Shown piece by piece: positions 5,990 to 30,100 of a DNA stretch of 64,000 nucleotides. This DNA is from Lumbricus rubellus (lineage: Eukaryota > Annelida > Clitellata > Crassiclitellata > Lumbricidae): assembly GCA_945859605.1 (NCBI GenBank), contig OX243825.1, positions 3,634,215 through 3,698,214 of the forward strand. Reading direction: 5' to 3'. Each line of letters starts with the position of its first letter. Positions within the stretch are counted from its first letter, which is position 1. The notes under the pieces are model-generated. The model did no database searches. It had not been told where the DNA came from and saw nothing but the letters and a program-made list of their open reading frames with translations. The translations under genes and the position numbers were made by a program.

Positions 5990-7011
5990 TCGAGGCATAA
6001 CTAGACTAGTTGACCCTTGAATGCCAGGCCTCCTCCGATCGTATTATTGGTTCATCAGCGAGCATAAATCCGTTATTCGTTCTTAAGCCTAAACTATTAT
6101 AGGCTATATTAGGCTAGGCAGATTTACTATACAAGACTTGCGAAAGAAGTAAAGCTAAACGAGAGAAAGCTGCTGAAGTGACGTATGGTTCCGACCAAGG
6201 TACCAATTTTGCCACGCCCACGAGAAGGCTTACTATGACGTATTACTTAGGTATCCTAGCTGATGTTCTGAGGTCACTTCCCTGTGATAGCCAAGAACGC
6301 TGCTCCCGGTGTGCACTATCGCACACAAACAGGTTACGCCAGTTCCAACCTTCCCATGAGTAACATGGGAAGCTCCCGTGTACTTCTGGAACAAAGCCTA
6401 CCTCTTGGGTTTGCAACTGTATCTTGCCCACTCCGTGACCTCAGTCAACAATCTAGGATTTTTTAACCGCTATTTACATATTGAAACTACGACAAGAAAG
6501 ACCGTGCGCCAGGTGCTGTGGCGACATCACGGGTTGTAAGTTCTGGTGAAAGCTGCTTAAGCTTCCCATTAAGCTATGAATCCTGACTTGTATTTATGTG
6601 TATGCTTAACGATAGAAACGTTTCTGATTGGCTCAAGCGTCTTTAAAAGCCTAAGACAAGACGCTAAGAAGACAACCGTTGCTATAGCAACGTCGCTTAA
6701 AAACTGAGTCTCCATTCTCCAATAACATAAATTGCTTAGAATAATAATAATTAGTCCTACATGAGAACTTCTGTAGCGCCGTTCGGTAGCTTCTATCCAA
6801 CTAAACAACCGGCTCAAACCCTGCTAGTATAAAACTTCAATAGTTCCACTAGTGAAAACCAACAGCAAGCATGACGTTCGTTGTGTGGTGCAGCAGTTGT
6901 GTATTTACACTATGGTGTGATTTACACGAAATTTCGTCATTATATCAAAGACCATAATTATATAGCCTGTACAATAGGTCTTTGAGACTTTGATTATATC
7001 ATGCATAAGTT
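5990..7011 (+). repeat. X-box repeat (XBR) copy 1
   Basis: First of several copies of a dispersed unit. Ordered landmarks are CAGGCCTCCTCGGATCGTA-like sequence, TTCTTAAGCCTAAAC, GTGACGTATGG, GACGTATTACTTAGGTATCC, AAAGACCGTGCGCCAG, a GATTGGCTCAAGCG CCAAT-like segment, then the palindrome CGTTGCTATAGCAACG at 6677. After it come CTTCTATCCAACTAAACAAC and a TATAAAACT-like stretch, ending at a tRNA-derived SINE. It has no coding capacity. It could be an unclassified LTR-like or non-autonomous element. The same order recurs at 7.2, 8.2, 9.1 and 19.9 kb, and inverted at 37 and 38 kb. Confidence 0.7.
6677..6692. promoter_or_regulatory. X-box-like palindrome (XBR copy 1)
   Basis: CGTTGCTATAGCAACG is a perfect 16-bp palindrome matching the RFX-family X-box half sites (GTTGCY..RGCAAC). 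Occupancy is not shown. Confidence 0.5.
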
Positions 7012-7220
7012 GCAAGGCGCGGCGTGTAGGCTAGTGGGCAAGTTCGTTGCCTTGCAGCCGGAGGGTTGCAGCTTCGAATCCCCCTCAAGTCGCCCCGATG
7101 GGATCTTGAGCAAGTCCATCAATTGCAATTGCTCAGCGCTTCGGCGTAAAACTCCGATGAAGTGTCTGCGCTGTAGTCTGGAGCGCCTCTGAGTAGCTAT
7201 AACAAGTGCACACACAAATG
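7012..7220 (+). mobile_element. tRNA-derived SINE, family A
   Basis: The head reads like a degenerate pol III promoter (GCTAGTGGGCAAG for box A, GCTTCGAATCC for box B). It continues with a conserved body (CAATTGCTCAGCGCTTCGGCG) and a tail GAGCGCCTCTGAGTAG resembling the LINE 3' end. It sits at the same place in XBR copy 1 as another family-A SINE does in XBR copy 4 (20,609), so insertion preceded duplication. Confidence 0.8.
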
Positions 7221-7224
7221 ATAA

Positions 7225-7860
7225 TTACATTAAACTACGATTAGGCAGATTTATTATGACTTCTGAAGCAAGTAATGCTAAATGACAGAAAGCCGTCGAA
7301 GTGACGTATGGCTCCGTTCGAAGATACCAATTTTTGCGCAGGCCCACGAGAAGGCTGATTCTGGCGTATTACTTAGGTATCCTAGCTGATGTTCTGAGGT
7401 CACTTCCTTGTGATAGCTAAGAACGCTGACCCCAGCCGGCGTGCCTATGATCGCACGTGTACCGGATAGGGTAGGCCGGTCCTGCCTTCCCTCACGGGAA
7501 GCTCCCGTGTACTAGGCCTACCCTTGGGTTTGCAGCTGTATCTTGCCCACTCCGTGACATCAGTCAACAGTCTAGGGTTTTTAACCGTTATTTATGAATT
7601 GAAACTACGACAAGAAAGACCGTGCGCCAGGTGCTGTGGCGACATCACGAGTTGTAATTTCTTGTGAAAGCTGCTTAAGCTTCCTATTAAGCTATGAATC
7701 CTAACTTGCATTTATGTATATGCTTAATGGTAGAAACGTTTCTGATTGGCTTAAGCGTCTATGACGCAGCGTAAAGAAGACAACCGTTGCTATAGCAACG
7801 TGTCTTAAAAATTGATACTCTCCAATAATATAAAGTGCTTGGAACAATGAAGCGCCGCAA
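7225..7860 (+). repeat. X-box repeat (XBR) copy 2, short
   Basis: Collinear with copy 1 from the AGGCAGATTTATTATGAC landmark through the palindrome at 7785, ending near GCTTGGAACAATGAAGCG. The segment following the palindrome in copy 1 is truncated here. Confidence 0.7.
7785..7800. promoter_or_regulatory. X-box-like palindrome (XBR copy 2)
   Basis: Exact CGTTGCTATAGCAACG, identical to copy 1 although surrounding bases differ. Confidence 0.5.
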
Positions 7861-7911
7861 GATGTCGTCTTTCGCAGGGCTGTACTGGTAAATATAATTA
7901 AGGTGAGTACT

Positions 7912-8040
7912 GACCGAGGAAAACCCGACTTTTTCGGCCAGAAAATTCTGACGACCTTTTTTTAGTCATCCGGCCGAAATCTGCTGAAAATTTTCACAAT
8001 ATTCCGTCCAAAAAAACTGACGACTTTTTTTTAGTCATTC
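7912..8040. repeat. Fragment of the MITE interior module
   Basis: Two alternating GACGACTTTTTTTTAGTCAT / CGGCCGAAA-type blocks resemble the interiors of the MITEs at 3,226-3,983. No termini or target duplication were found, so this is a fragment. Confidence 0.4.
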
Positions 8041-8224
8041 GCTCACAACTTCAATACAATACGCCTAAATAACAGCGTTTACACTTTACACTAATACACT
8101 TTACCCGCGTATACACTGGTCTTCGGGAGGTAGGTAGGCCTAGGCCTGCAGGTATACAATGCGGTTTTTCTCTGCGCTTATTATTACTCGCTGTATACCC
8201 GCGTATGTCCTCGTGTGCAGGCCT

Positions 8225-9115
8225 GGTCTCTTGCCGGTCGAGGCATAACTAGTTTACCCTTGAATGCCAGGCCTCCTCGGATCGTAGCCTATTATTGGTT
8301 CATCAGCAAACGGCATATGTGTTCTTAAGCCTAAACTACCATTAGGGTATAGGCAGATTTCTTACGACTTGCGAAACAAGTAAAACTAAACGAGAGAAAG
8401 CTGCTGAAGTGACGTATGGTTCCGACCAAGGTACCAATTTTGCCACGCCCACGAGAAGGCTTACTATGACGTATTACTTAGGTATCCTAGCTGATGTTCT
8501 GAGGTCACTTCCCTGTGCTAGCTAAGAACGCTGCCCCCGGTGTGCACTATGGCACACAAACAGGTCACGCCAGTTCCACCTTCCCATGAGTAACATGGGA
8601 AGCTCCCGTGTACTTCGGGAACAAAGCCTACCTCTTGGGTTTGCAACTGTATCTTGTCCACTCCGTGATCTCAGTCAACAGTCTAGGATATTTTTAAACC
8701 GCTATTTATGGATTGAAACTATACGACAAGAAAGACCGTGCGCCAGAGACTGTGGCGACATCACGAGTTGTAAGTTCTTGTGAAAGCTGCTTATGCTTCC
8801 CGTTAAGCTGTGAATCCTAACTTGTATTTATGTGTATGCGCAACGAAGAAACGTTTCGGATTGGCTCAATTAAGCGTTTAATGGGTTAAAAGTCTAAGAC
8901 GCAACGCAAAGACAACCGTTGCTATAGCAACGTCGCTTAAAACTGATACTTTCCAATAATATAATTGTTTGGAATAATAATAACTACATGAGAACTTCTG
9001 TTCACAGCCGTTCGGTAAAGCTTCTATCCAACTAAACAACCGGGCTCAACCCCCTGCTAGTCTAAAACTTCCATAGTTTTACTAGTGAAAACCATCAGCA
9101 AGCATGACGATCCGT
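8225..9115 (+). repeat. X-box repeat (XBR) copy 3
   Basis: Collinear with copy 1, very similar over 8,390-8,690, and continuing through the palindrome at 8917 and the CTTCTATCCAACTAAACAAC landmark to about 9,110, where the next copy begins. A short ORF here is a by-product shared with copy 1. Confidence 0.7.
8917..8932. promoter_or_regulatory. X-box-like palindrome (XBR copy 3)
   Basis: Exact CGTTGCTATAGCAACG in the third tandem copy. Confidence 0.5.
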
Positions 9116-9822
9116 CATGTTCGTTCTTAAGCCTAAACTACTTTTAGGCTAGGCAGATTTAGTACGACTTGCGAAACCAGTAAAGCTAAGCGACAGAAAG
9201 CTGTTGAAATTACGTCTGGCTCCGAGTCTTCGACCAAAGGAAGCTTTAGGAACCAATTTTGCGCAGGCCCACGAGAGGGCGCCTTATTCTGCGCGTATTA
9301 CGTAGGTATCCTAACTGGTTCCGAGGTCACTTCCCTGTGATAGCTAAGAACGCTGCCTCTGGTGTACTCTATCGCACGTGAACCGTGAGCCAGTTCCACC
9401 TTCCATCCCGGAAGCTCTCGTGTTTGGATTGAGGGTTGGCCTACTTCCTAGGAACTAGGTCTACCCCTAGGAATTAGGTCTACCCCTTGGGTTTGCAGCT
9501 GTATTTTGCCCACTCCGTGACCTTAGCTGACAGCCTAGGACTTTATCGGTGATTTTTCGATTGAAACTACGACATGAAAGACCATGCGCCAGAGACTGTG
9601 GCGACATCACGGGTTGTAAGTTCTTGTGAAAGCTGCTTAAGCTTCCCATTATGCTATTAATCTCAACTGTATTTATGTGTATGCTTAACGACGGGAAACG
9701 TTTTGGATTGGCTCAAGCATCTTGAAAAGCAAATGACGCAACGTAAAGAAGGCAACCGTTGCTTATAGCAACGTCGCTCCAAAAGTGATACGTACTTTCC
9801 ATTCTCCAACACCATAAATTGC
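9116..9822 (+). repeat. X-box repeat (XBR) copy 4, left part
   Basis: The copy begins with GTTCTTAAGCCTAAAC and runs to ACCATAAATTGC, where the 10-kb foldback element interrupts it. It resumes at 19,927. Relative to other copies it has several small insertions. Confidence 0.7.
9757..9773. promoter_or_regulatory. X-box-like palindrome with one inserted base (XBR copy 4)
   Basis: CGTTGCTTATAGCAACG keeps both half sites but has one extra T in the centre. X-boxes tolerate variable spacing between half sites. Confidence 0.4.
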
Positions 9823-9960
9823 ATGTGTGTCAAATTAGCAGTCACATTGAGATTGAGATTCAGCAGTCATATTCGAATCGGGTGTGACCTCCCCAAAAGG
9901 CGCACAAGTGACGCACTAGCAAACACGTAATTTGACTTCAAAATTCACATATTTCGACTC
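9823..9960. repeat. Left outer terminal inverted repeat of the foldback element
   Basis: About 138 bp of non-satellite sequence, the near-exact reverse complement of 19,788-19,917. It joins directly to the first 186-bp unit at the TCCATCCAATAACGC landmark. Confidence 0.9.
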
Positions 9961-11015
9961 TATCCATCCAATAACGCTTAACAGGGCCTATTAACACCCA
10001 CCTGGACTACCTAGAACAATAGTTGCTAAAGCGTTTAAATTATTATTGTGCCTATTGTAGCCTTCCAAACTTCACACATGGTCGACTCTGGATTTCAATG
10101 CATCATATGAGCCAAGTTTGACACCTCACATTTCATACTCAGACCTTATCCATCCAATAACGCTTAACAGGGCCTATTAACACCCACCTGGACTACCTAG
10201 AACAATAGTTGCTAAAGCGTTTAAATTATTATTGTGCCTATTGTAGCCTTCCAAACTTCACACATTGTTGACCTTCAATTTCAATGCATCATATGAGCCA
10301 AGTTTGGCCCTTGAAATGTCATACTCAGACCCTATCCATCCAATAACGCTTAACAGGGCCTATTAACCACCTGGACTACCTAGAACAATAGTTGCTAAAG
10401 CGTTTAAATTATTATTGTGCCTATTGTAGCCTTCCAAACTTCACACATCGTCGACTCTGGATTTCAATGCATCATATGAGCCAAGTTTGACACTTCACAT
10501 TTCATACTCAGACCCTATCCATCCAATAACGCTTAACAGGGCCTATTAACACCCACCTGGACTACCTAGAACAATAGTTGCTAAAGCGTTTAAATTATTA
10601 TTGTGCCTATTGTAGCCTTCCAAACTTCACACATCGTCGACTCTGGATTTCAATGCATCATATGAGCCAAGTTTGACACCTCACATTTCATACTCAGACT
10701 CTATCCATCCAATAACGCTTAACAGGGCCTATTAACACCCACCTGGACTACCTAGAACAATAGTTGCTAAAGCGTTTAAATTATTATTGTGCCTATTGTA
10801 GCCTTCCAAACTTCACACATCGTCGACTCTGGATTTCAATGCATCATATGAGCCAAGTTTGACACCTCACATTTCATACTCAGACCCTATCCATCCAATA
10901 ACGCTTAACAGGACCTATTAACACCCACCTGGACTACCTAGAACAATAGTTGCTATAGCGTTTAAACCATTTTTGTCCCTATTGTAGCCCTCTAAACTTC
11001 ACATATTGTCGACCG
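9961..11015 (-). repeat. 186-bp satellite array, left arm (about 5.7 units)
   Basis: The landmark TATCCATCCAATAACGC recurs at 9961, 10147, 10333, 10516, 10702 and 10888. Spacing is 186 bp, except one 183-bp unit that lost three bases. The innermost unit carries variants (GCTATAGCGTTTAAACC, TCCCTATTGTAGCCC) found again, inverted, in the innermost units of the right arm. The two arms are therefore inverted copies of one array. Confidence 0.95.
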
Positions 11016-11974
11016 TGAGTAGTGGTAATGGTGCGGATACTTCCCCCATCTGAAATTAGGCACCGCTAGCGCATCTAGAAAGTATTCTAATGTTGGTAAA
11101 ATTGATATCTCCGCAGATATTGAGCCTAGTTTCGTCTAGCTTAACTGTCCAAATAATAAATGGCTTGAACGCCAAGTATTGAAAATCCGACGAAGACCTG
11201 TATTCGTCTTTCACTCAATCAAACTGGGTAGGTGTAGACTAGGCAGACGTAGACTAGGTGGATGTAGACAAATGTAGATGTAAACGAAGCATAGGTAGAT
11301 GCAGACGGTAGATGTAGACCGTAGATGTAGGTGTAGACGGGGGTAACTAAAATGAGCAAGAATGAAAGGGCGCTCCAGAAGGCGCCGAGGAGGGGGCAAA
11401 GTTTAACTCTACACTTAAAATGCGTCGACCCATCACCCCTACACGCTCGGTGTCACACCAACCAGCGGCTTTGGTATACATCTGGACCGATATGCACAAG
11501 AGGGTATAACTCATACTCTTTGCTTAAACGTGGCCTATGCGGGAGTAGTGGGTAATTTCCGTATGCATGGCTTGTGATTAGCGAATTACGATAGGTATAA
11601 CGTTATTCGAACTCGGAGGCAGGTACAAGCCCGCTACTCCGAAGGTCAACAATAGACAGCCGACTTTGCTGGACCGCGTGAACAATAGGCGGCCGTTGAG
11701 ATTTCCCTGTGGACCGTCTATAGGTCTTGATCTGTTCACCCCACGCTGGCAACGACCGCATATAAATATCTTTCACACATGCGCGCTCAGCTCTAACCTA
11801 TTGAATTTGGGGGAGAGCAAGCGTCATGCATCGTCGGGTGCAAGGAATGTGTAGATTAGTTGTTCACTTCCAATTCTATCTTAATGCATACCGCTACATT
11901 CCAAAGGCTACCTCTGAGGTAGCAATGTCTGGAGGAAGGTCCACCTTTAGCCTACGCTATTCCTACTTATGTGC
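11016..11974. other. Unassigned interior of the foldback element
   Basis: No gene recognised. Positions 11,215-11,345 hold a degenerate minisatellite built on GTAGATGTAGAC. The remainder has short unconvincing ORFs and may be remains of element-specific or captured DNA. Confidence 0.5.
11215..11345 (+). repeat. Degenerate GTAGATGTAGAC minisatellite
   Basis: Imperfect 10-13 bp units built on GTAGACTAGG, GTAGATGTAGAC and GTAGACC repeat about ten times. Confidence 0.7.
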
Positions 11975-12131
11975 ATTTCGGCCCTGGATACACGACACTT
12001 AAGCTAAGGGCGCCATCTTCCTTTCGGACAGGCACCACTGGGGATACCCACTCACTAACGTTAGCTTCCTCGCTTATCAACGCATCAAGCGCACGTTCAA
12101 TTAAATTCCGAGGAGGTATAGGGTGGCGTCG

Positions 12132-13168
12132 TTACGGCTGCCTTACGGGGCGTGCCTCGCCTGTCTCTATCCTATGTGTAGTAATCGACGTCCTACCCAA
12201 GTCTCTATCGCAAAGTGAAAACACATCGCTATGGTCCATCCGAAACTGGTCGAACCGCTTACGGATATCGAAGGAAACCTCCTCCGGCAAATCTGCCATC
12301 AAAGTGTCTCGCAATGTATTTTCTCCGTCTAGCCCTTCGTTCCGCTTTCTTCCCGTCCCCTGTTCTACCTCTACCGGATGCAAGCCACCGAGGAACTGGT
12401 CCTTTGTAAACCTCACTGGTTCCTCGTTTATATTCACTAGTCTCACTCTAGCGGCTGCGCGGTCTCCCACTACCACACGGGCAAGATGCACTCCTGGTTG
12501 AGTCTCCTGGTCTTCGGTCATCCAAGCAGGCGCTGTATTAGTCAAATCTCCATAAATCATCTTAACGGGGACCTCACTTTGACTCTTAGGAGACACCACA
12601 ACCTCCTCAGCCAGTATAACTCTACGGAACCACATAGACCCATTACCTTTTACAAGGGGTATACGTCTACGGCCCAAAAACAATGCCCCATTACCAAAGA
12701 CTAGGCGACAGCGGTGTTCCCGTAGCCAATCCATCCCTAGCATGGGCTCCGTTATCTGGTCAGACACCAAAAGTCCAGTTGGGACCTCAATACCATCACT
12801 GACCTTAATGGACAAGCGGACCTCCCCAAGGACATTAATACTAGTGACATTAGTAGCCATCAGAAACGAGAATAGGGTTGCAGTGTTAACCCTTCGACTG
12901 TCGTAGACGGAACCAGGCTGACTTCAGATCCCGTATCGATCAGGCAAATCTGCGGTCTTCCGTTGATGGTCCCGCGGATGTAGACTGCGTTGCTGCTGGT
13001 TCGGTCCGGTAGTTGGGAGCGCCTCGTATAATTGACCGCCACCGACAAGAGTGGCGTAGGTGCTTCCGTTCCAGTCCTCATGGTTCCGTTCGTCTCGTTC
13101 CATGGGCGTCGAGGCTGTCTGCAGTGACGGGCGAGGTGAACGGCTGGGCCGTAGTTATAACAGGTCAC
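12132..13168 (-). pseudogene. gypsy protease to RT start, interrupted
   Basis: Two adjacent frames. The upstream one (13,168-12,860) has a nucleocapsid-like C-x2-Y-x4-H-x4-C segment, in which the second zinc-binding Cys is Tyr, and then the retroviral-type protease active site LIDTGSEVSLVP. The second (12,860-12,132) has the MLGMDWLREHRC block that follows the protease and the linker DLGRTSITTHRIETGEARPV that leads into RT. Continuation past 12,132 needs a stop to be passed, and the frame is also broken at 12,860. Presumably inactive. Confidence 0.8.
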
Positions 13169-13534
13169 ACCCCGTCTTGAACTCTGCTGTCCGGAATCAC
13201 CAGCGCTGCGGTGTCCGGGGCGATCGTCACGCCCCAGAACCTAGGAGCTCGGCCACGTAGCTCTCGGAAATGATGTTCGATTCGTTGCTCCTTTCTTTCT
13301 GTCAGCGTCGCTGTTCGTCACGCTGCGTCGCCAGGACCCTGTCAAGCGTTGACTGGATCCGGCTGCTTACGTCGGCCTCCTGCGTACCCCTGACTTGGTG
13401 GAAGGGCCTCCTGCGGTCGTAGGAGTCCGGTAGGCCTCGTCCAGATTCTTTGGCTGTCTTTCACGTACCTTGAGTGAAAGTTCGAGGAAACCGTCTTTGG
13501 CGATGATTTCCGTGGTCTCGTTGGAAGGCACAGG

Positions 13535-14122
13535 TTACGCTAACACGACAAGGCGTCGAATGTCGTGTAGCATGTCGCTCAAAGTCTCCTCGGAACGTTC
13601 ACGTCGGTAGTACAGCTGGGCGCCGATGGTTTCCGTCTGTCCCCCTGTAACGTACCTTTGGCGAAGGCGTTCCACGAGCTCCTCGTAGCTGACGTCCCGA
13701 CGTGCGCCGAAGTCCCAGAGTAGCTGCGTGGCGGCTTTCTCCAGCGCACATCGGAGGTAGTCGACCATGTCCACGGCCGTCCACCGGTTGTGACGGGAAC
13801 AGACTTCAAACTGCACCAGGAATGTATCCAGCGATCCCGGCCCATCGAACTTTCCTGGTTTCATTGGAGGCAGTCGGTTCCGTGGCCGGTCTCCGGTCGT
13901 CCCCAGCATCTTCAGGGAGGTCACCCTTTCGTCAGACGTCTCCCGGTAGCTCATCCTCATCGGCCCCCGTCCGTCGACCTGAAGCTCCTCTATCAGTCGT
14001 CTCGGGTCCGATCGCTGCTCTGCCGTCGCACTCCCGTCGGCGAACTGCGTTGAAGAGCTCGTCGGCTGGTCGGCAAACCCTCCAGCTGCGTAGGCGATTG
14101 TGACCTCCTCATCGTCCTCCAT
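13535..14122 (-). CDS. gypsy Gag, N-terminal part
   Basis: 195-residue ORF. An acidic start is followed by a capsid-like segment with the retrotransposon Gag pattern: KPGKFDGPGSLDTFLVQFE (about 88-106), then WTAVDMVDYLRCAL and a YEELVERLRQRY helix pair. The frame is lost after 13,535, before the zinc knuckle. The ATG at 14,122 is a plausible native start, lying downstream of a putative LTR at 14,385-14,692. Confidence 0.75.
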   Translation of the reverse strand: MEDDEEVTIAYAAGGFADQPTSSSTQFADGSATAEQRSDPRRLIEELQVDGRGPMRMSYRETSDERVTSLKMLGTTGDRPRNRLPPMKPGKFDGPGSLDTFLVQFEVCSRHNRWTAVDMVDYLRCALEKAATQLLWDFGARRDVSYEELVERLRQRYVTGGQTETIGAQLYYRRERSEETLSDMLHDIRRLVVLA

Positions 14123-14384
14123 CGTAGGTCAATTTGCGGTTGTTGCTCAGAAGAACTGTGCACCCCACTTCTGGTACAAGTGTCGCGGAAAACTAGTTGT
14201 GAACCCCACTTTCCTCTCAGTGCCCGTTGAGCTAATCGTCAGGATGGCCGTCCAGCGATCAGCGGGAGTAGGGTCTGTCCATATGTCACGCGTGTCGTTT
14301 CAGGGGGGGTGGAAACGCAAGTCCGTCTTCGTCGTCTTTAGAAGGACTGCCAATTCTTCCGATCGATCATACAACCCAACACGA

Positions 14385-14692
14385 TGTTAAGAAGATGGAA
14401 CGTTTTATTCGACACAATCGCAGATCCCACTCGCAGTGTAGACCGTCTAGTCGTCCCTCTTCTTGACGTCCAAGCACTCTAACGACTGATGAACTTCTTA
14501 CGGCCGTCGTACTCTACTACTCTCGACTGTCTCTCTCTCTCTCTCTACTAAAGCTCTGTCTCTAACCTCGACTACGACTGCGACTCACTTTGGCTACGAC
14601 TACTACTCACAACTAACTGACCTGTGGACTGACTGAGCTCCTGCCTATCGGAAAATAGTTTAACGAACGTGTATGACCAAAGGGCCTTTACA
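14385..14692 (-). repeat. Putative 5' LTR of the gypsy element
   Basis: On the minus strand a 308-bp segment begins TGTAAAGG and ends CTTAACA (TG..CA). It contains an AATAAA signal near its 3' part (complement of 14,401-14,412), and lies upstream of gag. No second LTR is present to confirm the limits, and I could not identify a primer-binding site with confidence. Confidence 0.4.
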
Positions 14693-14860
14693 GTCGGAGG
14701 CAGAGTACAACCTCTCACTCCACGTTTATAATGCGACCGAGCCACCCGCAGCAAAGATCCGAGAAATTAATCTCTGATAATCCGACCGACCGGGATTCGA
14801 AACCGGGCCGCTGGCGTGGCGAGCGGGTTACAACCCACTCGGCCACGCAGGATCTCTGTG
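14693..14860 (-). mobile_element. tRNA-derived SINE, family B, copy 1
   Basis: On the minus strand the head reads GCGTGGCCGAGTGGG (box A-like) and GGTTTCGAATCCC (box B with one extra T), resembling a serine/leucine-type tRNA. The body contains GGGTGGCTCGGTCGCAT and ATAAACGTGGAGTGAGAGG and ends CTGCCTCCGAC. It abuts the putative LTR. Confidence 0.75.
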
Positions 14861-14917
14861 CTCCTGCATGAAATGTTCAGGGCTTAACGACACTGTTTCA
14901 TATCGAAGATGATTAGT

Positions 14918-15064
14918 GTCGGAGGCAGAGAACAACCTCACACTCCACGTTTATATTGCGACCGAGCCACCCGCTGTAAAGATCCCCGACCGGGAATTGA
15001 ACCCGGGCCGCCGGCGCGGCGAGCGGGCTACAACCCACTCGACCACGCAGGATCTCCTGCATGT
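14918..15064 (-). mobile_element. tRNA-derived SINE, family B, copy 2
   Basis: Same order as copy 1: GCGTGGTCGAGTGGG, GGGTTCAATTCCCGG, GGGTGGCTCGGTCGCAAT, ending CTCTGCCTCCGAC. The two copies differ from each other by many substitutions, so they are independent insertions or an old tandem pair. This is a different family from the A SINEs. Confidence 0.75.
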
Positions 15065-15094
15065 TAAACTAGCTGCTAAATATACCCTTCTAGA

Positions 15095-15490
15095 AGAGGC
15101 TAGGCCACGAAAAGAGGCAAGGCCAAAAGAGACGAGGCTACGAAAAGAGGCTAGGCCAAAAGAGGCAAAAGGCGCGGAAGAAGATAGGCCACGAAAAGTT
15201 GCTAGGCCAAAAGAGGCAAAAGGCGGGAAAGAGGATAGGCCACGAAAAGTGGCTAGGCCAAAAGAGACTAGGCCACGAAAAGAGGCTAGACCAAAAGAGG
15301 TTACGCCACGAAAGAGGCTAGGCCAAAAGAGACAAAAGGCGGGAAAGAAGCCGGGCGTCGAAAGAGGCAAAAAAAAGCGGAAAAGAAGCTGGGAGTCAAA
15401 AGAGGCTAGACTACGAAAAGAGCATAGGCCAAAAGTGGCTGGGCGGCGAAAAAAACAAAAGGCAAAAAAAAGACATGGGTCCAACCCAAT
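15095..15490 (+). repeat. Purine-rich minisatellite (AGGCCAAAAGAGGC-type)
   Basis: Degenerate units alternate AGGCCACGAAAAG and AGGCTAGGCCAAAAGAGGC. The array leaves open frames on both strands (K/R/E/P-rich on plus, F/S/L/A-rich on minus) purely from repeat periodicity and is not a gene. Confidence 0.85.
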
Positions 15491-15539
15491 TTCGCCACAG
15501 TATGACATTTGAATTGCCCAAGTTGGCTCATTTGATGCG

Positions 15540-18500
15540 TTAAAATACACGGTCGACGATATGTGAAGTTTGAAGGGCTGCTATAGGGACAATAATGATT
15601 TAAACGCTATAGCAACTATTGTTCTAAGTAGTCCTGATGGGTGTCAATAGGCCCTGTTACGCGTTATTGGATGGATAGGGGCTGAGTATGACATTTCAAG
15701 TGACAAACTTGGCTCAAATGTTGCATTAAAATACACGGTCTATGATATGTGTTGATATGTGAAGTTTGAAGGGCTACAATAGGGACAATAATGGTTTAAA
15801 CGCTATAGCAACTATTGGAATAGGTAGTCCAGATGGGTGGTAATAGGCCCTGTTAAGCGTTATTGGATGGATAGGGTCTGAGTATGAAATGTGAAGTGTC
15901 AAACTTGGCTCATATGATGCATTGAAATCCAGAGTCGACGATGTGTGAAGTTTGGAAGGCTACAATATGCACAATAATAATTTAAACGCTTTAGCAACTA
16001 TTGTTCTAGGTAGTCCAGGTGGGTGTTAATAGGCCCTGTTAAGCGTTATTGGATGGATAGGGTCTGAGTATGACATTTCAAGGGCCAAACTTGGCTCATA
16101 TGATGCATTGAAATTGAAGGTCGACGATGTGTGAAGTTTGGAAGGCTACAATAGGCACAATAATAATTTAAACGCTTTAGCAACTATTGTTCTAAGTAGT
16201 CCAGGTGGGTGTTAATAGGCCCTGTTAAGCGTTATTGGATGGATAGGGTCTGAGTATGAAATGTGAAGTGTCAAACTTGGCTCATATGATGCATTGAAAT
16301 CCAGAGTCGACGATGTGTGAAGTTTGGAAGGCTACAATATGCACAATAATAATTTAAACGCTTTAGCAACTATTGTTCTAGGTAGTCCAGGTGGGTGTTA
16401 ATAGGCCCTGTTAAGCGTTATTGGATGGATAGGGTCTGGGTATGACATTTCAAGGGCCAAACTTGGCTCATATGATGCATTGAAATTGAAGGTCGACGAT
16501 GTGTGAAGTTTGGAAGGCTACAATAGGCACAATAAAAATTTAAACGCTTTATCAACTATTGTTCTAGGTAGTCCAGGTGGGTGTTAATAGGCCCTGTTAA
16601 GCGTTATTGGATGGATAGGGTCTGAGTATGAAATGTGAAGTGTCAAACTTGGCTCATATGATGCATTGAAATCCAGAGTCGACGATGTGTGAAGTTTGGA
16701 AGGCTACAATAGGCACAATAATAATTTAAACGCTTTAGCAACTATTGTTCTAGGTAGTCCAGGTAGGTGTTAATAGGCCCTGTTAAGCGTTATTGGATGG
16801 ATAGGGTCTGGGTATGACATTTCAAGGGCCAAACTTGGCTCATATGATGCATTGAAATTGAAGGTCGACGATGTGTGAAGTTTGGAAGGCTACAATAGGC
16901 ACAATAATAATTTAAACGCTTTAGCAACTATTGTTCTAGGTAGTCCAGGTGGGTGTTAATAGGCCCTGTTAAGCGTTATTGGATGGATAGGGTCTGGGTA
17001 TGACATTTCAAGGGCCAAACTTGGCTCATATGATGCATTGAAATTGAAGGTCGACGATGTGTGAAGTTTGGAAGGCTACAATAGGCACAATAATAATTTA
17101 AACGCTTTAGCAACTATTGTTCTAGGTATTCCAGGTGGGTGTTAATAGGCCCTGTTAAGCGTTATTGGATGGATAGGGTCTGAGTATGAAATGTGAAGTG
17201 TCAAACTTGGCTCATATGATGCATTGAAATCCAGAGTCGACGATGTGTGAAGTTTGGAAGGCTACAATAGGCACAATAATAATTTAAACGCTTTAGCAAC
17301 TATTGTTCTAGGTAGTCCAGGTGGGTGTTAATAGGCCCTGTTAAGCGTTATTGGATGGATAGGGTCTGGGTATGACATTTCAAGGGCCAAACCTGGCTCA
17401 TATGATGCATTGAAATTGAAGGTCGACGATGTGTGAAGTTTGGAAGGCTACAATAGGCACAATAATAATTTAAACGCTTTAGCAACTATTGTTCTAGGTA
17501 GTCCAGGTGGGTGTTAATAGGCCCTGTTAAGCGTTATTGGATGGATAGGGTCTGAGTATGAAATGTGAAGTGTCAAACTTGGCTCATATGATGCATTGAA
17601 ATTGAAGGTCGACGATGTGTGAAGTTTGGAAGGCTACAATAGGCACAATAATAATTTAAACGCTTTATCAACTATTGTTCTAGGTAGTCCAGGTGGGTGT
17701 TAATAGGTCCTGTTAAGCGTTATTGGATGGATAGGGTCTGAGTATGAAATGTGAGGTGTCAAACTTGGCTCATATGATGCATTGAAATCCAGAGTCGACG
17801 ATGTGTGAAGTTTGGAAGGCTACAATAGGCACAATAATAATTTAAACGCTTTAGCAACTATTGTTCTAGGTAGTCCAGGTGGGTGTTAATAGGCCCTGTT
17901 AAGCGTTATTGGATGGATAGGGTCTGAGTATGAAATGTGAAGTGTCAAACTTGGCTCATATGATGCATTGAAATCCAGAGTCGACGATGTGTGAAGTTTG
18001 GAAGGCTACAATAGGCACAATAATCATTTAAACGCTTTAGCAACTATTGTTCTAGGTAGTCCAGGTGGGTGTTAATAGGCCCTGTTAAGCGTTATTGGAT
18101 GGATAGGGTCTGAGTATGACATTTCAAGGGCCAAACTTGGCTCATATGATGCATTGAAATTGAAGGTCGACGATGTGTGAAGTTTGGAAGGCTACAATAG
18201 GCACAATAATAATTTAAACGCTTTAGCAACTATTGTTCTAGGTAGTCCAGGTGGGTGTTAATAGGTCCTGTTAAGCGTTATTGGATGGATAGGGTCTGAG
18301 TATGAAATGTGAGGTGTCAAACTTGGCTCATATGATGCATTGAAATCCAGAGTCGACGATGTGTGAAGTTTGGAAGGCTACAATAGGCACAATAATAATT
18401 TAAACGCTTTAGCAACTATTGTTCTAGGTAGTCCAGGTGGGTGTTAATAGGCCCTGTTAAGCGTTATTGGATGGATAGGGTCTGAGTATGACATTTCAAG

Positions 18501-19787
18501 GGCCAAACTTGGCTCATATGATGCATTGAAATTGAAGGTCGACGATGTGTGAAGTTTGGAAGGCTACAATAGGCACAATAATAATTTAAACGCTTTATCA
18601 ACTATTGTTCTAGGTAGTCCAGGTGGGTGTTAATAGGTCCTGTTAAGCGTTATTGGATGGATAGGGTCTGAGTATGAAATGTGAGGTGTCAAACTTGGCT
18701 CATATGATGCATTGAAATCCAGAGTCGACGATGTGTGAAGTTTGGAAGGCTACAATAGGCACAATAATAATTTAAACGCTTTAGCAACTATTGTTCTAGG
18801 TAGTCCAGGTGGGTGTTAATAGGCCCTGTTAAGCGTTATTGGATGGATAGGGTCTGAGTATGAAATGTGAAGTGTCAAACTTGGCTCATATGATGCATTG
18901 AAATCCAGAGTCGACGATGTGTGAAGTTTGGAAGGCTACAATAGGCACAATAATAATTTAAACGCTTTAGCAACTATTGTTCTAGGTAGTCCAGGTGGGT
19001 GTTAATAGGCCCTGTTAAGCGTTATTGGATGGATAGGGTCTGAGTATGACATTTCAAGGGCCAAACTTGGCTCATTAGATGCATTGAAATTGAAGGTCGA
19101 CGATGTGTGAAGTTTGGAAGGCTACAATAGGCACAATAATAATTTAAACGCTTTATCAACTATTGTTCTAGGTAGTCCAGGTGGGTGTTAATAGGTCCTG
19201 TTAAGCGTTATTGGATGGATAGGGTCTGAGTATGAAATGTGAGGTGTCAAACTTGGCTCATATGATGCATTGAAATCCAGAGTCGACGATGTGTGAAGTT
19301 TGGAAGGCTACAATAGGCACAATAATAATTTAAACGCTTTAGCAACTATTGTTCTAGGTAGTCCAGGTGGGTGTTAATAGGCCCTGTTAAGCGTTATTGG
19401 ATGGATAGGGTCTGAGTATGACATTTCAAGGGCCAAACTTGGCTCATATGATGCATTGAAATTGAAGGTCGACGATGTGTGAAGTTTGGAAGGCTACAAT
19501 AGGCACAATAATAATTTAAACGCTTTATCAACTATTGTTCTAGGTAGTCCAGGTGGGTGTTAATAGGTCCTGTTAAGCGTTATTGGATGGATAGGGTCTG
19601 AGTATGAAATGTGAGGTGTCAAACTTGGCTCATATGATGCATTGAAATCCAGAGTCGACGATGTGTGAAGTTTGGAAGGCTACAATAGGCACAATAATAA
19701 TTTAAACGCTTTAGCAACTATTGTTCTAGGTAGTCCAGGTGGGTGTTAATAGGCCCTGTTAAGCGTTATTGGATGGATAGAGTCGAA
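15540..19787 (+). repeat. 186-bp satellite array, right arm (about 22.8 units)
   Basis: The landmark ATGTGTGAAGTTTGGAAGGC recurs every 186 bp (for example 15,941, 16,127, 16,313). Two variants occur: type A (GAAATGTGAAGTGTCAAAC with AATCCAGAGTCGACG) and type B (GACATTTCAAGGGCCAAAC with AATTGAAGGTCGACG). In places they alternate, giving a 372-bp dimer, and elsewhere they run AA or BB. The first two or three units (15,540-15,900) are the most diverged; the rest are nearly identical, as expected from recent unequal exchange. Orientation is opposite to the left arm. Confidence 0.95.
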
Positions 19788-19917
19788 ATATGTGAATTTT
19801 GAAGTCAAATTACGTGTTTGCTAGTGCGTCACTTGTGCGCCTTTTGGGGAGGTCACACCCGATTCGAATATGACTGCTGAATCTCAATCTCAATGTGACT
19901 GCTAATTTGACACACAT
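19788..19917. repeat. Right outer terminal inverted repeat of the foldback element
   Basis: Near-exact reverse complement of 9,823-9,960. It ends CTAATTTGACACACAT immediately before the ATAAATTGC duplication. Confidence 0.9.
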
Positions 19918-19926
19918 ATAAATTGC

Positions 19927-20608
19927 TAGGAAGAATAATTAACTGAGAATTTATGTAGCGCCGTTCGGTAGCTTCTATCCAACTAAACAGGGCCGGATTT
20001 ACATGTAATCCAACTAAGCAACTGCTTAGGGCCTCCGGAATCTAGGGGGCCTCTAAAAGTGAGCTAAAGAAAAAATCATTGGCTCATAAATTATAACTTA
20101 TGAATAAGGACAATTTGTACAGGATAGAAAATATAAATGACATGAAACATTTAATTTTGATTCAATTATAAAATTTTTAGGCCTATATACTTTTAGTTAA
20201 TTGGATGTTAGCCATGTGGCCCCCCTGATGTCCTTCAACTTAGAAAAAGTGGCCCTCATGTCCTCCAACTTAGAAAAAGTGGCCCTGAAGTCAAAAAAAG
20301 GTTGGGAACCACTGCGTTCAACAGTAGTTGATCAAACATGTTGATTACAGGCGCGATATGCATTAGGAATATATCTAGCAACATGCATTTTGTCTGCTTT
20401 TATCCTTAAGTGGGCCTCATAATTGAAATTGCTCAAGCATCTTGTTCAAATCCGGCCCTGCAACTAAACAACCGGACTCAAACACTTTCACTATTATATT
20501 ATAGTGAAAACCACCATCGAGCACGGCGTTCTCATGTGTGATGCAGTTGTGGATTACCTACACCATGGTGTAGTTTACACGCAAATTCGTCATATCATGT
20601 ATAAGTTG
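19927..20608 (+). repeat. X-box repeat (XBR) copy 4, right part
   Basis: Continues copy 4 with TAGCGCCGTTCGGTAGCTTC, matching 6,775-6,795 in copy 1. It is interrupted by a hAT at 19,988-20,460, then resumes through GTTTACACGCAAATTCGTC to the SINE at 20,609, matching the copy 1 order. Confidence 0.8.
19988..20460. mobile_element. hAT MITE with CAGGGCCGGATTTAC ends (TSD CAACTAAA)
   Basis: Starts CAGGGCCGGATTTAC, ends CAAATCCGGCCCTG, flanked by exact 8-bp CAACTAAA (19,980-19,987 and 20,461-20,468). XBR copy 1 has a single CAACTAAA at the equivalent point near 6,800, giving an empty-site control. The interior contains GGTTGGGAACCACTG, the end of another hAT family, so an older fragment is embedded. 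Confidence 0.9.
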
Positions 20609-20835
20609 TGGGGCGCGGTGGTGTAGTGGGCAAGTTCGTTGCCTTGCAGCCGGAGAGTTGCAGGTTCGAATCCACCTCAAGTAGGCTAGCCTCGTAGGGA
20701 CCCTGGGCAAGTCCTTCACTCGCAATTGCTCAGTGCTTCGGCGTGAAACTCCGATTCAGTGTCCACGCGGTAGTCGGGAGCGCTTCTGAGTAAAAATCTT
20801 GAAGGGGTGTAATAACAAGTGGACATAACACATAT
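20609..20835 (+). mobile_element. tRNA-derived SINE, family A
   Basis: Best-preserved family-A copy. Head GGCGCGGTGGTGTAGTGGGC (box A) and a canonical box B GGTTCGAATCC at 20,663-20,673. Then a body with TTGCTCAGTGCTTCGGCGTG and a tail GGGAGCGCTTCTGAGTA..CTTGAAGGGG, like the 3' end of the LINE at 494-1484. It follows XBR copy 4 at the same point as in copy 1. Confidence 0.85.
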
Positions 20836-22955: not shown

Positions 22956-25900
22956 TCAATAAGGCCAGCTGAAGTCCATGTTACAACTCGTCGACTGTTC
23001 GTGACTTTCATTATCATCCCCACAAATCCCCCCAAACAATCCCTCGAGACTGCTCGGTGTGTCGAGCGCGGTCGACTGCCCCCCGTCCTCCTCTGGGGGA
23101 AACGCCTCTAGTCCCCCCTTCTCCGCTTTGTCGAACAGCGGCATCTCGCTCGCAAACTCCGGCGACGAATTCTGCGAGAGAGGCGGCGTGCACCCGTCCC
23201 CGATGAACGCTCCACCTCCGGCGTCGGAATGCTCGAACGTTCCGAACTCGGAGGAGGGGAGATCCCCGCAGTGGAGAGCGTCGGAGTACACCAGCGACGG
23301 TTGGAGCTCGACACCGCTGATCAACCGGTCGCGGGACGAGCTGCTCCACGGGAGATCCTTTCCGTGAGCAGAGGAGCGGTCCTGGTCGAGCTTTTCCGTG
23401 GGACGTTTGTTGTCAGAGCAATCGGTCCAGTCGACCTGGGATCCTCCGTGCGACGAGAGGTTCTCTGAGCTTCCTCCGGTCGTGGCGGAAGAGTTGTTTT
23501 CCTCCTCGGTGACGGCGTCGTTCAGCATCTGATCGATCATTTCTTCGAGAGTGAACGCGCAGCCGGTCGGAAGGCAGTTGGCGGGTTCCGACTGACTGCG
23601 TTGGAGCGACGTGACGGACGACTCCTGATTGGCCGAGATGATCTCCTCAACTTCGCCGGCGCCTTCGAGGTCCTGGAAGTCGAAAACCTGTGGCATCATC
23701 ATCGCCCCCGGCATCAGACCCAGCCCGGACGATGATGCGATCCCACCGAAAGCGGTTGACTCCGGCTGGAGTCCCGAGGTTTCTTCGTACCTGTCTTCGT
23801 GAAGTCGAATCCCCTGAGGAAGAAGTTTATTGCATGGGTTCTGGAAGTCGTGCGCCGAATGGTGACGCTGGCGACTAGGGGCTCCACCGTGCCCGCCCCT
23901 CTTCAGAGGTCGTATGCTCGACACGGGGGCAAAGCCACCCGATCTGGTGGCGCTGCTCATCACGGCAACTCGCTGTGACTCGGAGCTTGTGTACGGCACA
24001 AAGCCTCTGGCGTCCGTCGTGAAAGCCGCAGCCAGACTGCGCGCGTCCGCCGGCCTGGACACCATCTCAAAGCCTTCCATCTCGATCTGGTTCCTCTGTC
24101 CGAGCGTCGGTAAGGGTTTGATCGCGGTGCCCGATGGTAGACAATCGGTGATGTGGATTGGCATGAACGCATTCGACTGGTCCAAGTAGAGACTGCAGTT
24201 GCTGAGATTTGATCCGGGGGACGCGCCGGACATCGGGGTCGACCGCTCGCTGCCACGACTCCCTTCGCCCGACGGCTCGTAACCCACCGCGTCCAGGTAG
24301 TAGGTCTCCGGATTGATGCCGGCCACCGTGTTCGGTCTGCTCGGCCGGGTCCCCTGCGACGACAACAACCCGAGACCGGTCTTGTCGTCCCCAAATGCTG
24401 AAGCCGGTCGGCTGGTGCCTGGGTGTGGCTGCAAGTCCCTCTGGTGCTGGCGAAGGAGCTGTGCGTGTTGGATCCTGCGAAGGGTCGACACCTGAGAGAG
24501 TTGCTGAAGGGTGCAGTGCTGGGCGTATTGGTCCTTATAGGGCATCGCGTGCGTCTCATCTCCAGGCGAGTGGAGACGGGTCAGAAGGGAATCAACGACC
24601 TCTCTTTCGGTTCCAACCCTACCCGCCTCTCCCGTGAGGTAATCCACTTTGACGGGAGGACGCTCGACTACTCCCTCCGGCCGATCGTCACCCAGAAGCA
24701 GCTTTTTGATCCCGCAATAGTTCTGCGCGGCGATGTTTCTTTTTACCGATGACCTGCCCAGATTACTGACGCCAACCTGACCTGGTTTCGTAGCTTTGTC
24801 TTCGGGCAGACAGACACCGTAGCCCCGTTGTGTCGACGGCACGGTGTTCTCCAAAAATGTTTTCATTACGGTCAAACTGTCAACTGGTTTGAGTAAGAGT
24901 TGTTGCAGATTAACGCAGTTCGACTGCGACTCCGATGATTGCGACTCCGAAGTCTCAGAAGTCGACATGATCACTGGCACACCGAGAAGTTTGAGACTTT
25001 CCACCAGCGGTCTACCGGAATCGTCGTGGAAAATCCCCTGGCTGACAAAGGACTTGTTTACGGAATCCACCGTTTCGACCCCTGACGTGGAGACGGTAAC
25101 GTGAAAGAAATTGGCACCAGAAGTGAGGTTCGAACCTCCCTGGCTGACGGCGAGCAGCGGTACACCGGACGCCGTCTGCCTTAATGGACTCGATCCGACT
25201 TGACTGATACCCGGATCGAGGAAGCTGAAGATGGAACTACTTTCCGCATGCCGTCGTGATGACTCAAAAGCAGATTCCGACTTTGGCGTGACTGGCGTTG
25301 GAAGAACGAGATGCGGAAGATCGGTCGGTTGGATCAAGCGTACGACCGACTTTGACGAGAGGAGAACCTCGGATATCATTCCGGGGGGATGATGACGCCT
25401 GATGGGGGACTGTGACTGCGAGTCTCCTTCTGTGGGCAGGCCCTGCATTTTATTCCCACAATCAACCGGCTGGGCGAACTGCAGCCCCAGCGACGTTGCC
25501 GATCTCGTGCTCGGAGTTGACGGCACGACGACCTGACCGGTCGATTCAAAAGTGGAACCCGAAGGAAGGACCTGGACGATTTGGATGTTCGGAGAGACGA
25601 TTCCCGCGACCGGGTTGCAGGTGAACGGATTCGACGTGGCGGTTCGATCCAAATCGAGAACCGCAGCAGAGACACCGGTTCCCTGTTCGCCGTCCAAAGA
25701 GATGTTCTTTTCGCGCAGTTCCTTCAAGATCTGAGACACGTTGCGGCTGTCGTTGTAGAACTTGAGCGCCCTGCTAGCGCCCGCACCGCTACTGCACCTC
25801 TGCTCGTCCAGGATCGACGACACCGTCTTTGTTGACGACCTTGAAGGCACGCTGCGACCTCTGCCCTTCGAGACTTGACTTAAGGAACTGGTAGTGGTCG

Positions 25901-27103
25901 CGATTCGAGTTGGTGGCTTCACGCTTGCCGCGTACTGGCTCAGCTGCTCGAGGCGAGACTGGCAGAGGAGCTCTGCCTGGGAGGGAATAATCGGAGAGTG
26001 GGAGTTGTTCTGTGAGGCGTTATTGTCGTCAGATCCGCCGCTATCCATGCCGAAAGGATTCCCATTGTCCAAGAAGGATCCGTTAGGATTCGATGCCTGC
26101 CAGGACGTTGTTGTTGATGGATCCTTACCTGCGTATGGTCCGCAGCCAACGGACCTAGGCGACATCATCATCATCGGATCTTGAACTGACGACGAAGTCA
26201 AACTTCTCGCATCTGTGGCGAGCGTAAACGACCGAACTTCCTGAAAGACTGCAGGCTTCAGAACGTTGCCGATCTCCATGGAAACTCCAAACTGGTTGCC
26301 TTGGCGACCGCTGCCCCCGATGACGTCAGAACAAACGGGTCGCACGCAACCGTTAACGACGCTGCAAACGACCCTGGTGGCATTCCCGTTCTTTTCCACC
26401 GAGCCGGGAAACCCCTGAGAAATTCCGCCCGCCTCCAACAACGAATGCGTTCGGTAACCGGAAAAACCGTCGGAAATGCCCGGGGTGGCTGCAAGAGAAG
26501 TGGTAAACACCATCCCGGCGAGATCACTGGTGCTACGCGGAAGATCGAATCTCACAGGGGCGATGGCCGGTCTTACCCCAATGTTCTTAACGACCGCCTG
26601 AATCGGCAGCCCCCTGGTGTCCATCGAGGGAACATTCTGCGCAAGACTGCTCGAGATGAACACCAACGAACCTGCGGCAGCGTGGACGGGCTGGAGCTGG
26701 GAAGTGCTGGGCGATAGGAGAATGAACTGCGGGGCCTCGACCCTTCGTGGGGCCCTCGGGTCAAGGTCAAGGCGAGTCCCCGCTACGGGTTTCGGAAGAA
26801 GGGTCTTCGGAAGGATCGTCGGGACTGACGGTCGACGCGGATTGCGATCCACGTCGGATCTGGGATTCGGCGTTCGCGAGATCCCAACCAGAGGGTTTCG
26901 CGGCGGCGCCTGGGCGAGAGATGTTGTCGTCTGTTTGGTGGATGTGGTGCCACCTGGTGTTGATGATTCGTGTGTTGCGAGATGGGTGCGCTCTTCTTCC
27001 ATGCGCTGTTTCTGTCGTGCGATCTCGCGTCGTTCCTGCAGTTTGCGTTGGAGCTGGTGACGAGTGTTGAGCTGCCTCTGAGTTGCGTCCTCCTCTGTGG
27101 AAT
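22956..27103 (-). CDS. RFX7: RFX gene, long terminal exon
   Basis: Acceptor GTTGCAG at 27,104 upward. Starts in frame with STEEDATQRQLNTRHQ and runs 1,382 codons to TGA at 22,958-22,956. Uninterrupted, GC-richer than its surroundings and free of transposons. Low-complexity Ser/Gly/Thr stretches and an acidic end (NMDFSWPY) suit an activation region. Confidence 0.95.
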
Positions 27104-30100
27104 CTGCAACGTTGGGAAATTATTTACGTATGGTTATTTGTGTGCATTCTGGTATTGTGTATGTATCCATGTTTATGAGTTAGATATTGGTGCTATAGGA
27201 GTTAATAATTAATAATTACAATAAAACGACAATAGCAATAACAATAAAAATTATGATAATTATTGATAACAATGAATGAAAATAACAATAAAAAACCAAA
27301 ACAATAATTAATAATACTGAAAATGATAATGATTTATATATAAATGAACATGACAATTATTTAATAATAATGAATATGATTAATTAAAAAGAAAAATAAT
27401 AATACGAACAAGAATAATAACAATTTTAAATGATCATGGAAATATTAACTATAATAATTATAAGATAACAATTACGGATCATGATAATTATGATGATTCT
27501 GATAATAAGAATCATAATTTAGGGTAGAATGGAGGTAGAATGGAGGGTACAAAGACAAGAATTTCATGTTACAGAACTGGATGTTGAAGAAGGCTACAGC
27601 AAGTTGAAGAAGCCGGACGATATGACAAATGGCGCCAAGTGTAATAACCTGCCTACAAAAGGCAGCGAACCAAAACAAGACGAATACAAATAATACCAAC
27701 CTTTGCACTTGGTTCCCGCTGTCACGGTAAATGCCTCCTCGGAAACCTGGCTGACGTAGCTCTTTGAGATGAGATGGATCGCCAGATCCTGGATGCTTTC
27801 GAACGGTATGCTCAGCAGTTTGTACGACCATTCGAGGATGAGTTTGGACGCCGCTCGAATTGCTTGATCCTCGACTCGTCCTTCGCTGCGGTTCTTAGCG
27901 CAGTCCATGTCGTCATCGCATGCTTCCTGTACGAAACGAAAACAAAACGCTTGCACGTAACCAATCTTTGCATACGTTTCTCTCTATGGAATGCACTTCC
28001 ACCGTCATAATTGTGGACGAGAAGAAGTGGTTGAAGTAGCATAGATGCAAAAACATAGCCAAAGTAATGCACGCAAATACAGCATTCATGCATGGCCTAC
28101 ATAATGTATGTCTACCTATAATAGGCCATTTATATGGTATTAGGCTACATGATATAGGCTAAATGCAGGGTTATTTCTAAGGAATTTTTAGAACTGCACA
28201 ACCCCATTCTTTTCCTTTCCATCCTCCATGGTAAATTACTTTTAATCGGAGGACAATGACCATTTTTTGCTAGTTTTAAATGTACAGGAGTGCTTTTACA
28301 ACTGCACAAATCCATTTAGAACTACGCACTTTTGTACAACTCCACATTAAAAAAGTCCTGCATGTAACCAATTTTTGTTGTTGTGTTGCACCCATCTGCA
28401 TGCATACGTTTCTCTCTATGGAATGCACTGCACCTCCCTCTCTCTGTCTATGGCAGTCTTTCCTCGTCTTTCTTTTGCCTCAAATCCTAGCTTTCTCTCA
28501 GGGTCGATTGCACTGGGAGCTTGTCATAGGTGGTTTGTGCCAAGTTCATTTGAAAAAGCTAAAATTCATTCATTTTATTTTGTACTTGTTTTTGTCCAAC
28601 ACGAATCAGGTTCACAAGTCACAGCATGGTTGCACGGCGAAATGAAATGAGATAATTAGTGAAGTTGATTAACCGTTCATGGGTGGTTTTGACTGTTACT
28701 TACTTACTTGTGATGATAATTAAACTAGATTTGTCTTAAGCTTTCTTAGTAAACTCATCTTCTGAATATTGAACAGATTTTGTCACATCATCAACTAATG
28801 CTTTAGGCCAGCGGTTCTCAACGGGGGGGTCCGCGGCGACGTGCTTGGGGGTCCGCGAGCAAGTCCTGAAAATTATATATTTCTTAGATAAAAACGTAGA
28901 AACAGTCAAACAGATAAATTTTTGAGCAATTTTTCGATATTTCCTCATTTCAATGGCGACATAAAACTAATAATACGCTGATTAATGACAAATTCATCTG
29001 TTTTAGATGGGTCGGTTTGTTTCACTCTCTAGATAATTAATAGATAGGATAGCCTAATAATAGAGTCGCATAGTCGTGATAATGCGCCAAAGGCGCAAAA
29101 TTTTATTGGGGGTCCGTGACCGTGGCATAAAATTTAAAAGAGGTCCGTGAGTCTGAAAAGGTTGAGAACCGCTGCTTTAGGCTATAGAAGGAATTGATCA
29201 ATGAATTAAAATTTAAAAATACCTGATTGTTGTCGTCATCGAGTTCTATTTTCGGAACTGTAAAGGAGTTGGGCTGCATGAGGAAAGAAATGCCACCAAA
29301 CATGTGCCTGAAGTAAACAAGAGAAACAGAACATGTTAAACTGTGACTATCAATGGTCAAGTGCATGCTGTCATGTGTGATCATGAATTCACATGTCAAT
29401 CGTGTAAGCATATTAAACAGCTTTAGAAGCACTTTCAAAGTAGAATGACTAGAAGGTAGACAGTAATTAATTACAAGTTAGTAATTACCAGTAATTAATT
29501 AGTAATTAATACCAGTATGTCATCGAACAGGCAAACCAGAGATATGAAAACAGCTTATTTACCAGGTATATCTATATTTTGAACCTAAAAGAACCTGCAC
29601 AATGCGCAAATCATCTACAAACACACATAAATTACTGGCTTTACCTAGCAAATGCTGCAGAAATGCATTGATTTGTCAAAAGAATTAAAACGGAGTTCTA
29701 TAGGCAATCAGGCTCTATGGCCCCATCACTGAACTAGACTAGAGGCACTGTATAAATGTTTTACTAGAGCACAATAGTTTTAAGGGTCTTCCAAAATATT
29801 TTCTAGTTTTCATTGGTGTCGTGATTATCTTTATCATCAATATCATAATTATTATCATTATCATAATCATCATCATATTAACATATCATCATCATAATTA
29901 TCATTATTATCAATGCCTCCTCCACCACCACTCTCATCATTGACAAAGGAAAACAATTCAAATGTGTATATGAAAAGATGGGAAGCTCACTTGGCATCTC
30001 CTCGGCTGCCAAGTCGTCGAGTTGTCAACTGCGGAAAGACGGTAAGAAGAATCTTCTTGAAGTCGGATACGGAGACAGGATCGACCAGGTGATGGACGGC

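Follow-up and report, generated by a model that had tools for sequence, protein, structure and literature searches.

How a 10-kb stretch of earthworm DNA came to carry two arrays of the same satellite in opposite orientation, and whether those arrays belong to a mobile element, are the questions raised by a locus of Lumbricus rubellus that lies within a 64-kb stretch of contig OX243825.1 (assembly GCA_945859605.1; positions 3,634,215 to 3,698,214, hereafter the window). Our analysis indicates that the locus very probably holds a non-autonomous foldback DNA transposon that was moved in trans, most likely by a Mutator-like (MULE/Rehavkus-type) transposase, and that has the satellite array as part of its terminus.

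Results

A 10-kb insertion with identical inverted tips and a 9-bp target-site duplication

The insertion comprises 10,095 bp (9823-19917) between exact 9-bp copies of ATAAATTGC, which occupy 9814-9822 and 19918-19926 on the + strand. The span 9814-19926 takes in both target-site duplications, and the element proper is 9823-19917. Besides the two borders, ATAAATTGC occurs on the + strand of the window only at 6727, in a paralogous site, and at 60386, and it was not found on the - strand of the window. Since a 9-bp match at the exact borders of a perfect inverted repeat is expected at 4^-9 per trial, a chance origin is implausible.

The outer domain of the terminal inverted repeat is a non-tandem tip of 133 bp, and the left tip (9823-9955, + strand) is identical to the reverse complement of the right tip (19785-19917, - strand). 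A sequence-only reading of this DNA had described perfect outer repeats of about 130 bp and a foldback-type insertion with a 9-bp duplication, and both descriptions are confirmed by these tips and by the exact ATAAATTGC copies that flank them. The mirror match between the arms extends beyond the 133-bp domain: the arms first differ at offset 257, counted from the tip, and accumulate six mismatches up to a 3-bp indel at offset 545 that breaks the register. The arms are unequal in length, with 1,191 bp on the left and 4,419 bp on the right of a 4,485-bp core. Long inverted termini with tandem repeats in variable number, together with a target-site duplication and an empty site, are the structural features of foldback elements, and each was observed here.

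Using the tip as a query, we detected two matches in the window (E <= 1e-3), both of them the element's own ends. Relaxed searches for a second tip or monomer copy elsewhere in the window (word size 7, E <= 1) returned only matches of 16-21 bases, and the element was seen as one copy only in these 64 kb. Four exact 22-24-base scans with tip and monomer all gave no matches in viral and prokaryotic contig collections, in which the lack of a sibling with the same tips means little.

The empty site in paralogous host units

A non-coding unit occurs here as several local paralogues, and the element is inserted in one of them. Consistent with the single-copy target that had been proposed from the sequence, the paralogous unit at 6109-7195 (+ strand) contains one ATAAATTGC at 6727-6735 and is collinear with both flanks, matching the left flank (9144-9822) at 75% and the right flank at 81% (19918-19987) and then, past a second insertion, at 92% (20461-20486), 79% (20502-20593), and 81% (20592-20792). 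With CAGGGCCGGATTT at its ends and an 8-bp duplication of CAACTAAA, this second insertion of 473 bp (19988-20460) is taken to be a hAT-like element, for which an 8-bp duplication would be expected. Because the collinear unit spans both insertion sites, one paralogue resolves two separate insertions.

The joined flanks, with one copy of the duplication, were aligned to five other units in all. The unit starting near 6330, for which the collinearity from 6109 to 7195 was measured, and the one starting near 8560 aligned to the left and right of the junction; the former has ATAAATTGC at 6727 and the latter a diverged form near 8961. The unit near 7440 contains ATAAAGTGC near 7830 and diverges soon afterwards, and two units at 37-38 kb aligned on the left side only, with the site itself too diverged to be informative. 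Two further paralogues back the empty site, less fully than the unit at 6109-7195. An idea that the host unit contains a heat-shock element was dropped, the pattern GAANNTTC being absent from the AGAAACGTTTCT stretch of the units.

Composition of the core

The core (11014-15498) has a GC content of 53%, relative to 40% for the arrays. The core contains 20 stop-to-stop pieces that reach 70 aa or more, and all were compared with Pfam, 3 at E <= 0.01 and 17 at E <= 1. None of the 20 pieces in this single copy matched a transposase family, MULE-type DDE and PHD-finger transposases included, which is no more than expected of a non-autonomous copy. Matches below the cut-off to PufX (E 0.003), Pentapeptide_3 (E 0.029), VIT1 (E 0.48), and GLTT (E 0.8) were taken as chance or low complexity.

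Three core pieces on the - strand, which lie in separate frames, look like the broken gag-protease region of an LTR retroelement (12132-14128). The piece at 12132-12923 has 16 related proteins (best E 1.4e-83, 59% identical over 92%), and zinc-knuckle and protease motifs were seen in one of these relatives, P0002. The piece at 12860-13240 gave weak Pfam aspartyl-protease matches (PF13975/PF13650) below the cut-off, and the piece at 13535-14128, without a database match of its own, was assigned to the gag-protease region by position. Among solved structures, the protease piece matched DDI1 only at E 0.21 and 0.52, and self-BLAST of the core revealed no LTR-like direct repeats around the remnant. 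The gag-protease piece may have been captured or be left over from an insertion.

The core also contains two diverged, SINE-like repeats resembling tRNA on the - strand (14693-14856 and 14918-15056), which are 77% alike. Families of this kind matched the - strand at 14981-15054 with E values of 0.0059 and 0.93, below the gathering score, and the strand of the 14693-14856 repeat follows from its alignment to the second copy. A purine-rich minisatellite at 15094-15463 (+ strand) was found by TRF and self-BLAST.

Probable class of the element and similar known elements

A 9-bp duplication combined with long termini of tandem repeats points to the Mutator-like group, and this is the most likely superfamily placement as judged by duplication length and architecture. 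The FB or Mutator-like transposase suggested by the sequence-only reading would be consistent with these data: duplication length and overall plan agree with Tetris, Tm1, and Rehavkus, and no transposase family was matched by the open pieces of the core.

P and hAT elements generate duplications of 7-8 bp, compared to 9 bp here, and the nearby hAT-like element has one of 8 bp; Merlin elements generate 8-9 bp, so their length is compatible with that of the present element. We consider it unlikely that one of these other transposase groups (P/Galileo, hAT, or Merlin) lies behind the foldback structure, although 9 bp need not mean Mutator and foldback termini are described in several groups, most of them Mutator, with exceptions cited that include Galileo in the P superfamily (excerpts of PMC4079207).

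The preferred Mutator-like placement is compatible with the 8-11-bp range of duplications given for MULEs in excerpts of PMC6446971. The same excerpts describe Rehavkus elements of arthropods and annelids as having 9-bp duplications, a PHD-finger transposase, terminal inverted repeats (TIRs) of 26-400 bp, and a minisatellite before the 3' TIR. The present element shares the duplication length of 9 bp and the presence of satellite repeats in or close to the termini; in contrast, its arms are longer than the Rehavkus TIRs, and no transposase was matched in its core pieces of at least 70 aa. A close likeness by description is to Rehavkus-1_TC of Tribolium castaneum, a 9.5-kb DNA transposon that contains the 164-bp TCsat23 in its inverted termini, in short arrays mostly of 5 and 8 monomers (excerpts of PMC10218199).

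Tetris, a foldback element of Drosophila virilis, has tandem repeats of about 220 bp in variable number within its termini and 8-10-bp duplications, and was itself assigned to Mutator on duplication length and terminal architecture (excerpts of PMC4079207). As described there, Tetris and the present element have in common a single-copy flanking domain, tandem repeats in inverted termini, and a middle without apparent coding capacity. Tetris termini, however, reach at most 1,735 bp and have few repeats per arm (two alleles of one left arm have 3 and 4), whereas the arms described here span 1.2 kb (6 units) and 4.4 kb (23 units). In the Mutator/foldback family Tm1 of Meloidogyne, composite termini also carry tandem repeats of variable number, duplications of 8-10 bp, most commonly 9 bp, were reported for 45 of 53 elements, and some copies encode a Phantom-like Mutator transposase (excerpts of PMC3169594). 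Tm1 resembles our element in its variable-number terminal repeats and its 9-bp duplication, but according to the same excerpts its repeat unit is about 14 bp, compared to 186 bp here, and its extreme ends are non-inverted 7-bp motifs.

A word-based rather than sequence-based literature search recognised no description of the present element. Long inverted termini of tandem repeats are also known from the Drosophila FB and sea-urchin TU elements, with units shorter than those found here. Our search by words for the sea-urchin elements yielded nothing besides Tetris, and foldbacks of both Drosophila (FB) and sea urchin are named in excerpts of PMC4079207.

Inverted satellite arrays as part of the termini

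TRF (period 186) and unit alignment defined a left array on the + strand (9956-11013) with five units of 186 bp, one of them 183 bp, and a truncated inner unit of 131 bp. The right array on the - strand (15499-19784), delimited by TRF, unit alignment, and typing, has 23 inverted units, the two innermost of which are degenerate. All 29 matches to a monomer query in the window (E <= 1e-3) were inside the element, where the left array accounts for six and the right array for 23. These matches bear out the earlier proposal that inverted 186-bp arrays stand on both sides with the satellite inside the inserted unit. As far as a single locus allows, the inserted unit, its tips, the duplication, the empty site, and the location of the arrays within the unit are all established.

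Two monomer types were distinguished, with 11 differing columns between the reference monomers of types A and B. The 29 monomers included 15 A, 10 B, one B/A chimera, and three degenerate edge units. Neighbouring pairs of clear type alternated in 17 of 22 cases, yielding 372-bp dimers. Counted inward from the tips, the order of types is A B A A A edge on the left and, over the first twelve units, A B A B A A B A B A A chimera on the right, which places the chimeric monomer at position 12.

The two arms have unusual variants in common at their innermost monomers. Six of the nine edge-only variants of the truncated left unit are common to the second-innermost right unit and five to the innermost right unit, and such shared variants were found in none of the 26 bulk units. 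Random placement reached six shared edge variants in 6 of 100,000 trials, a figure that is a guide rather than a strict probability because the monomers are related. Compared end to end, the left edge unit is 90-91% identical to the right edge units and 91-93% identical to the bulk; since it is not closer overall to the former, the argument for mirrored edges rests on the six shared variants. The outer part of this unit is bulk-like and the inner part is edge-like. The unusual variants common to the two arms suggest that these were formerly mirror images; if the termini were once mirror copies, arrays included, the array would belong structurally to the terminus. From these sequence comparisons, the array looks like an old, mirrored component of the termini, and it may also have grown after insertion.

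These data bear on whether a plain transposon captured a pre-existing genomic satellite at its ends, with the satellite arising first and being carried along. Whether array or transposon comes first is treated as an open question for satellites in transposons, such as TCsat23 in Rehavkus-1_TC (excerpts of PMC10218199). For the present element, however, we assign a low probability to capture: the inner-edge variants common to both arms indicate that an array was present in mirrored form while the termini still matched, the window contains no satellite outside the element, and the tip, when reverse-complemented, shows a weak likeness to monomer A, absent for B and in one of four scoring schemes, that would fit an origin from the terminus.

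Assembly is difficult where tandem or inverted repeats reach kilobase length, and copy numbers may be wrong, but an assembly artefact in the form of an inverted misjoin or a mis-sized array is highly improbable, because the two arms are unequal in length and in the order of their monomers, the flanks are distinct and align collinearly to a single paralogue that runs through the junction, and the 9-bp duplication is exact, none of which a misjoin yields.

Discussion

Model for insertion and array evolution

We propose a model for the foldback transposon in which the terminal inverted repeat consists of the 133-bp single-copy tip followed by the array of 186-bp monomers, and in which a transposase encoded elsewhere, most likely of the MULE or Rehavkus type, would recognise the tips. 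The whole 10-kb unit was inserted, presumably by cut-and-paste, into a copy of a non-coding repeat that is duplicated locally, and 9 bp of the target were duplicated. The arms would have begun as mirror images, arrays included, after which unequal exchange and duplication may have homogenised the bulk and shifted copy number, giving rise to 6 versus 23 units, mostly alternating A and B monomers, and the chimera. The inner edges would then remain as relics of the former mirrored arrays, and the core may have served as a catch-all that holds the old gag-protease fragment and the tRNA-like repeats.

Possible satellite spread by mobile elements

Because Tetris and Rehavkus-1_TC share its plan, the present element, likened to them by description, belongs to a known kind, of which it is a further example. 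That satellites spread via mobile elements is likewise not a new idea: in 2014, Tetris repeats were argued to have founded satellite arrays (excerpts of PMC4079207). Satellite spread by the present element is a hypothesis with this precedent, with the difference that free arrays are demonstrated for Tetris in those excerpts, whereas the satellite described here is known from within the element in the 64-kb window.

Small non-autonomous DNA transposons provide a related case. Monomers in or from such elements are described for the MITE-linked satellites Xstir of Xenopus and the pearl-related satellites of bivalves, and further satellites derived from transposon termini are named in the same review (excerpts of PMC9659126); these involve small MITEs, compared to the 10-kb element with arrays in both arms described here. 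The locus thus offers a clean single-locus case of satellite-array termini, with an exact duplication and a collinear paralogous empty site, and it is notable for the length of its right array and for inner edges that mirror each other. If siblings exist, comparing inner-edge and bulk monomers among copies would distinguish ready-made arrays from growth after insertion.

Relationship of the monomer to the tip

In its broadest form, the proposal would be that the satellite was born from the terminus of the transposon and evolves within it as an A/B dimeric array homogenised across arms, that each transposition plants several kilobases of higher-order satellite, and that the satellites of the genome descend from such insertions. 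We regard this full scenario as unlikely. The likeness between tip and monomer was examined in 16 tests, covering both monomer types and both orientations under four scoring schemes, with window segments of similar GC content as the comparison. Only the reversed tip against monomer A stood out, its score being reached by 4, 5, and 3 of 1000 segments in three schemes and by 153 of 1000 in the laxest. Against monomer B, the reversed tip showed no excess, with 133, 437, 266, and 647 of 1000 segments reaching its score in the four schemes. Derivation of the monomer from the tip is a lead only. In a shuffle test, the score was reached in 29 of 500 shuffles for the last 40 bases, 81 of 500 for the forward tip, and 4 of 500 for the reversed tip.

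Repeated units at the insertion site

Locally repeated units in which no genes were recognised occupy 6053-9822 (four units on the plus strand) and 36956-38408, at 37-38 kb (two units on the minus strand). Every one of the six units carries a single copy of the palindrome GTTGCTATAGCAAC, which resembles an RFX X-box. One copy has an extra T, and an ATTGGC box lies close to the palindrome in all six. These units may be duplicated promoters. The foldback element, the 10,095-bp insertion at 9823-19917, lies 50 bp beyond the X-box-like palindrome of the fourth unit, and its right flank holds a nested hAT-like insertion of 473 bp (19988-20460) with ends CAGGGCCGGATTT and an exact 8-bp duplication, CAACTAAA; both insertions fall within one host unit.

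When the 133-bp outer tip of the foldback element (9823-9955) was reversed, the A monomer of the 186-bp satellite showed weak collinearity with it over ~100 bp, with many gaps, and the B monomer showed no such collinearity. The likeness to A is a possible sign that the satellite originated from the end of this transposon.

Other features of the window

A dispersed family with members of ~200 bp (6996-7195, 20592-20792, 57682-57873, 59616-59837, and 63564-63776), roughly 77-81% alike and with a head judged by eye to be tRNA-like, is probably a SINE. On the minus strand, a 1,387-aa open frame (22956-27119), possibly one large exon, gave no Pfam match at E <= 0.01. Also on the minus strand, a 385-aa open frame (40074-41231) has two stretches of the Hsp20/alpha-crystallin type (Pfam PF00011, E 1.5e-15), and a protein search found five relatives of this frame.
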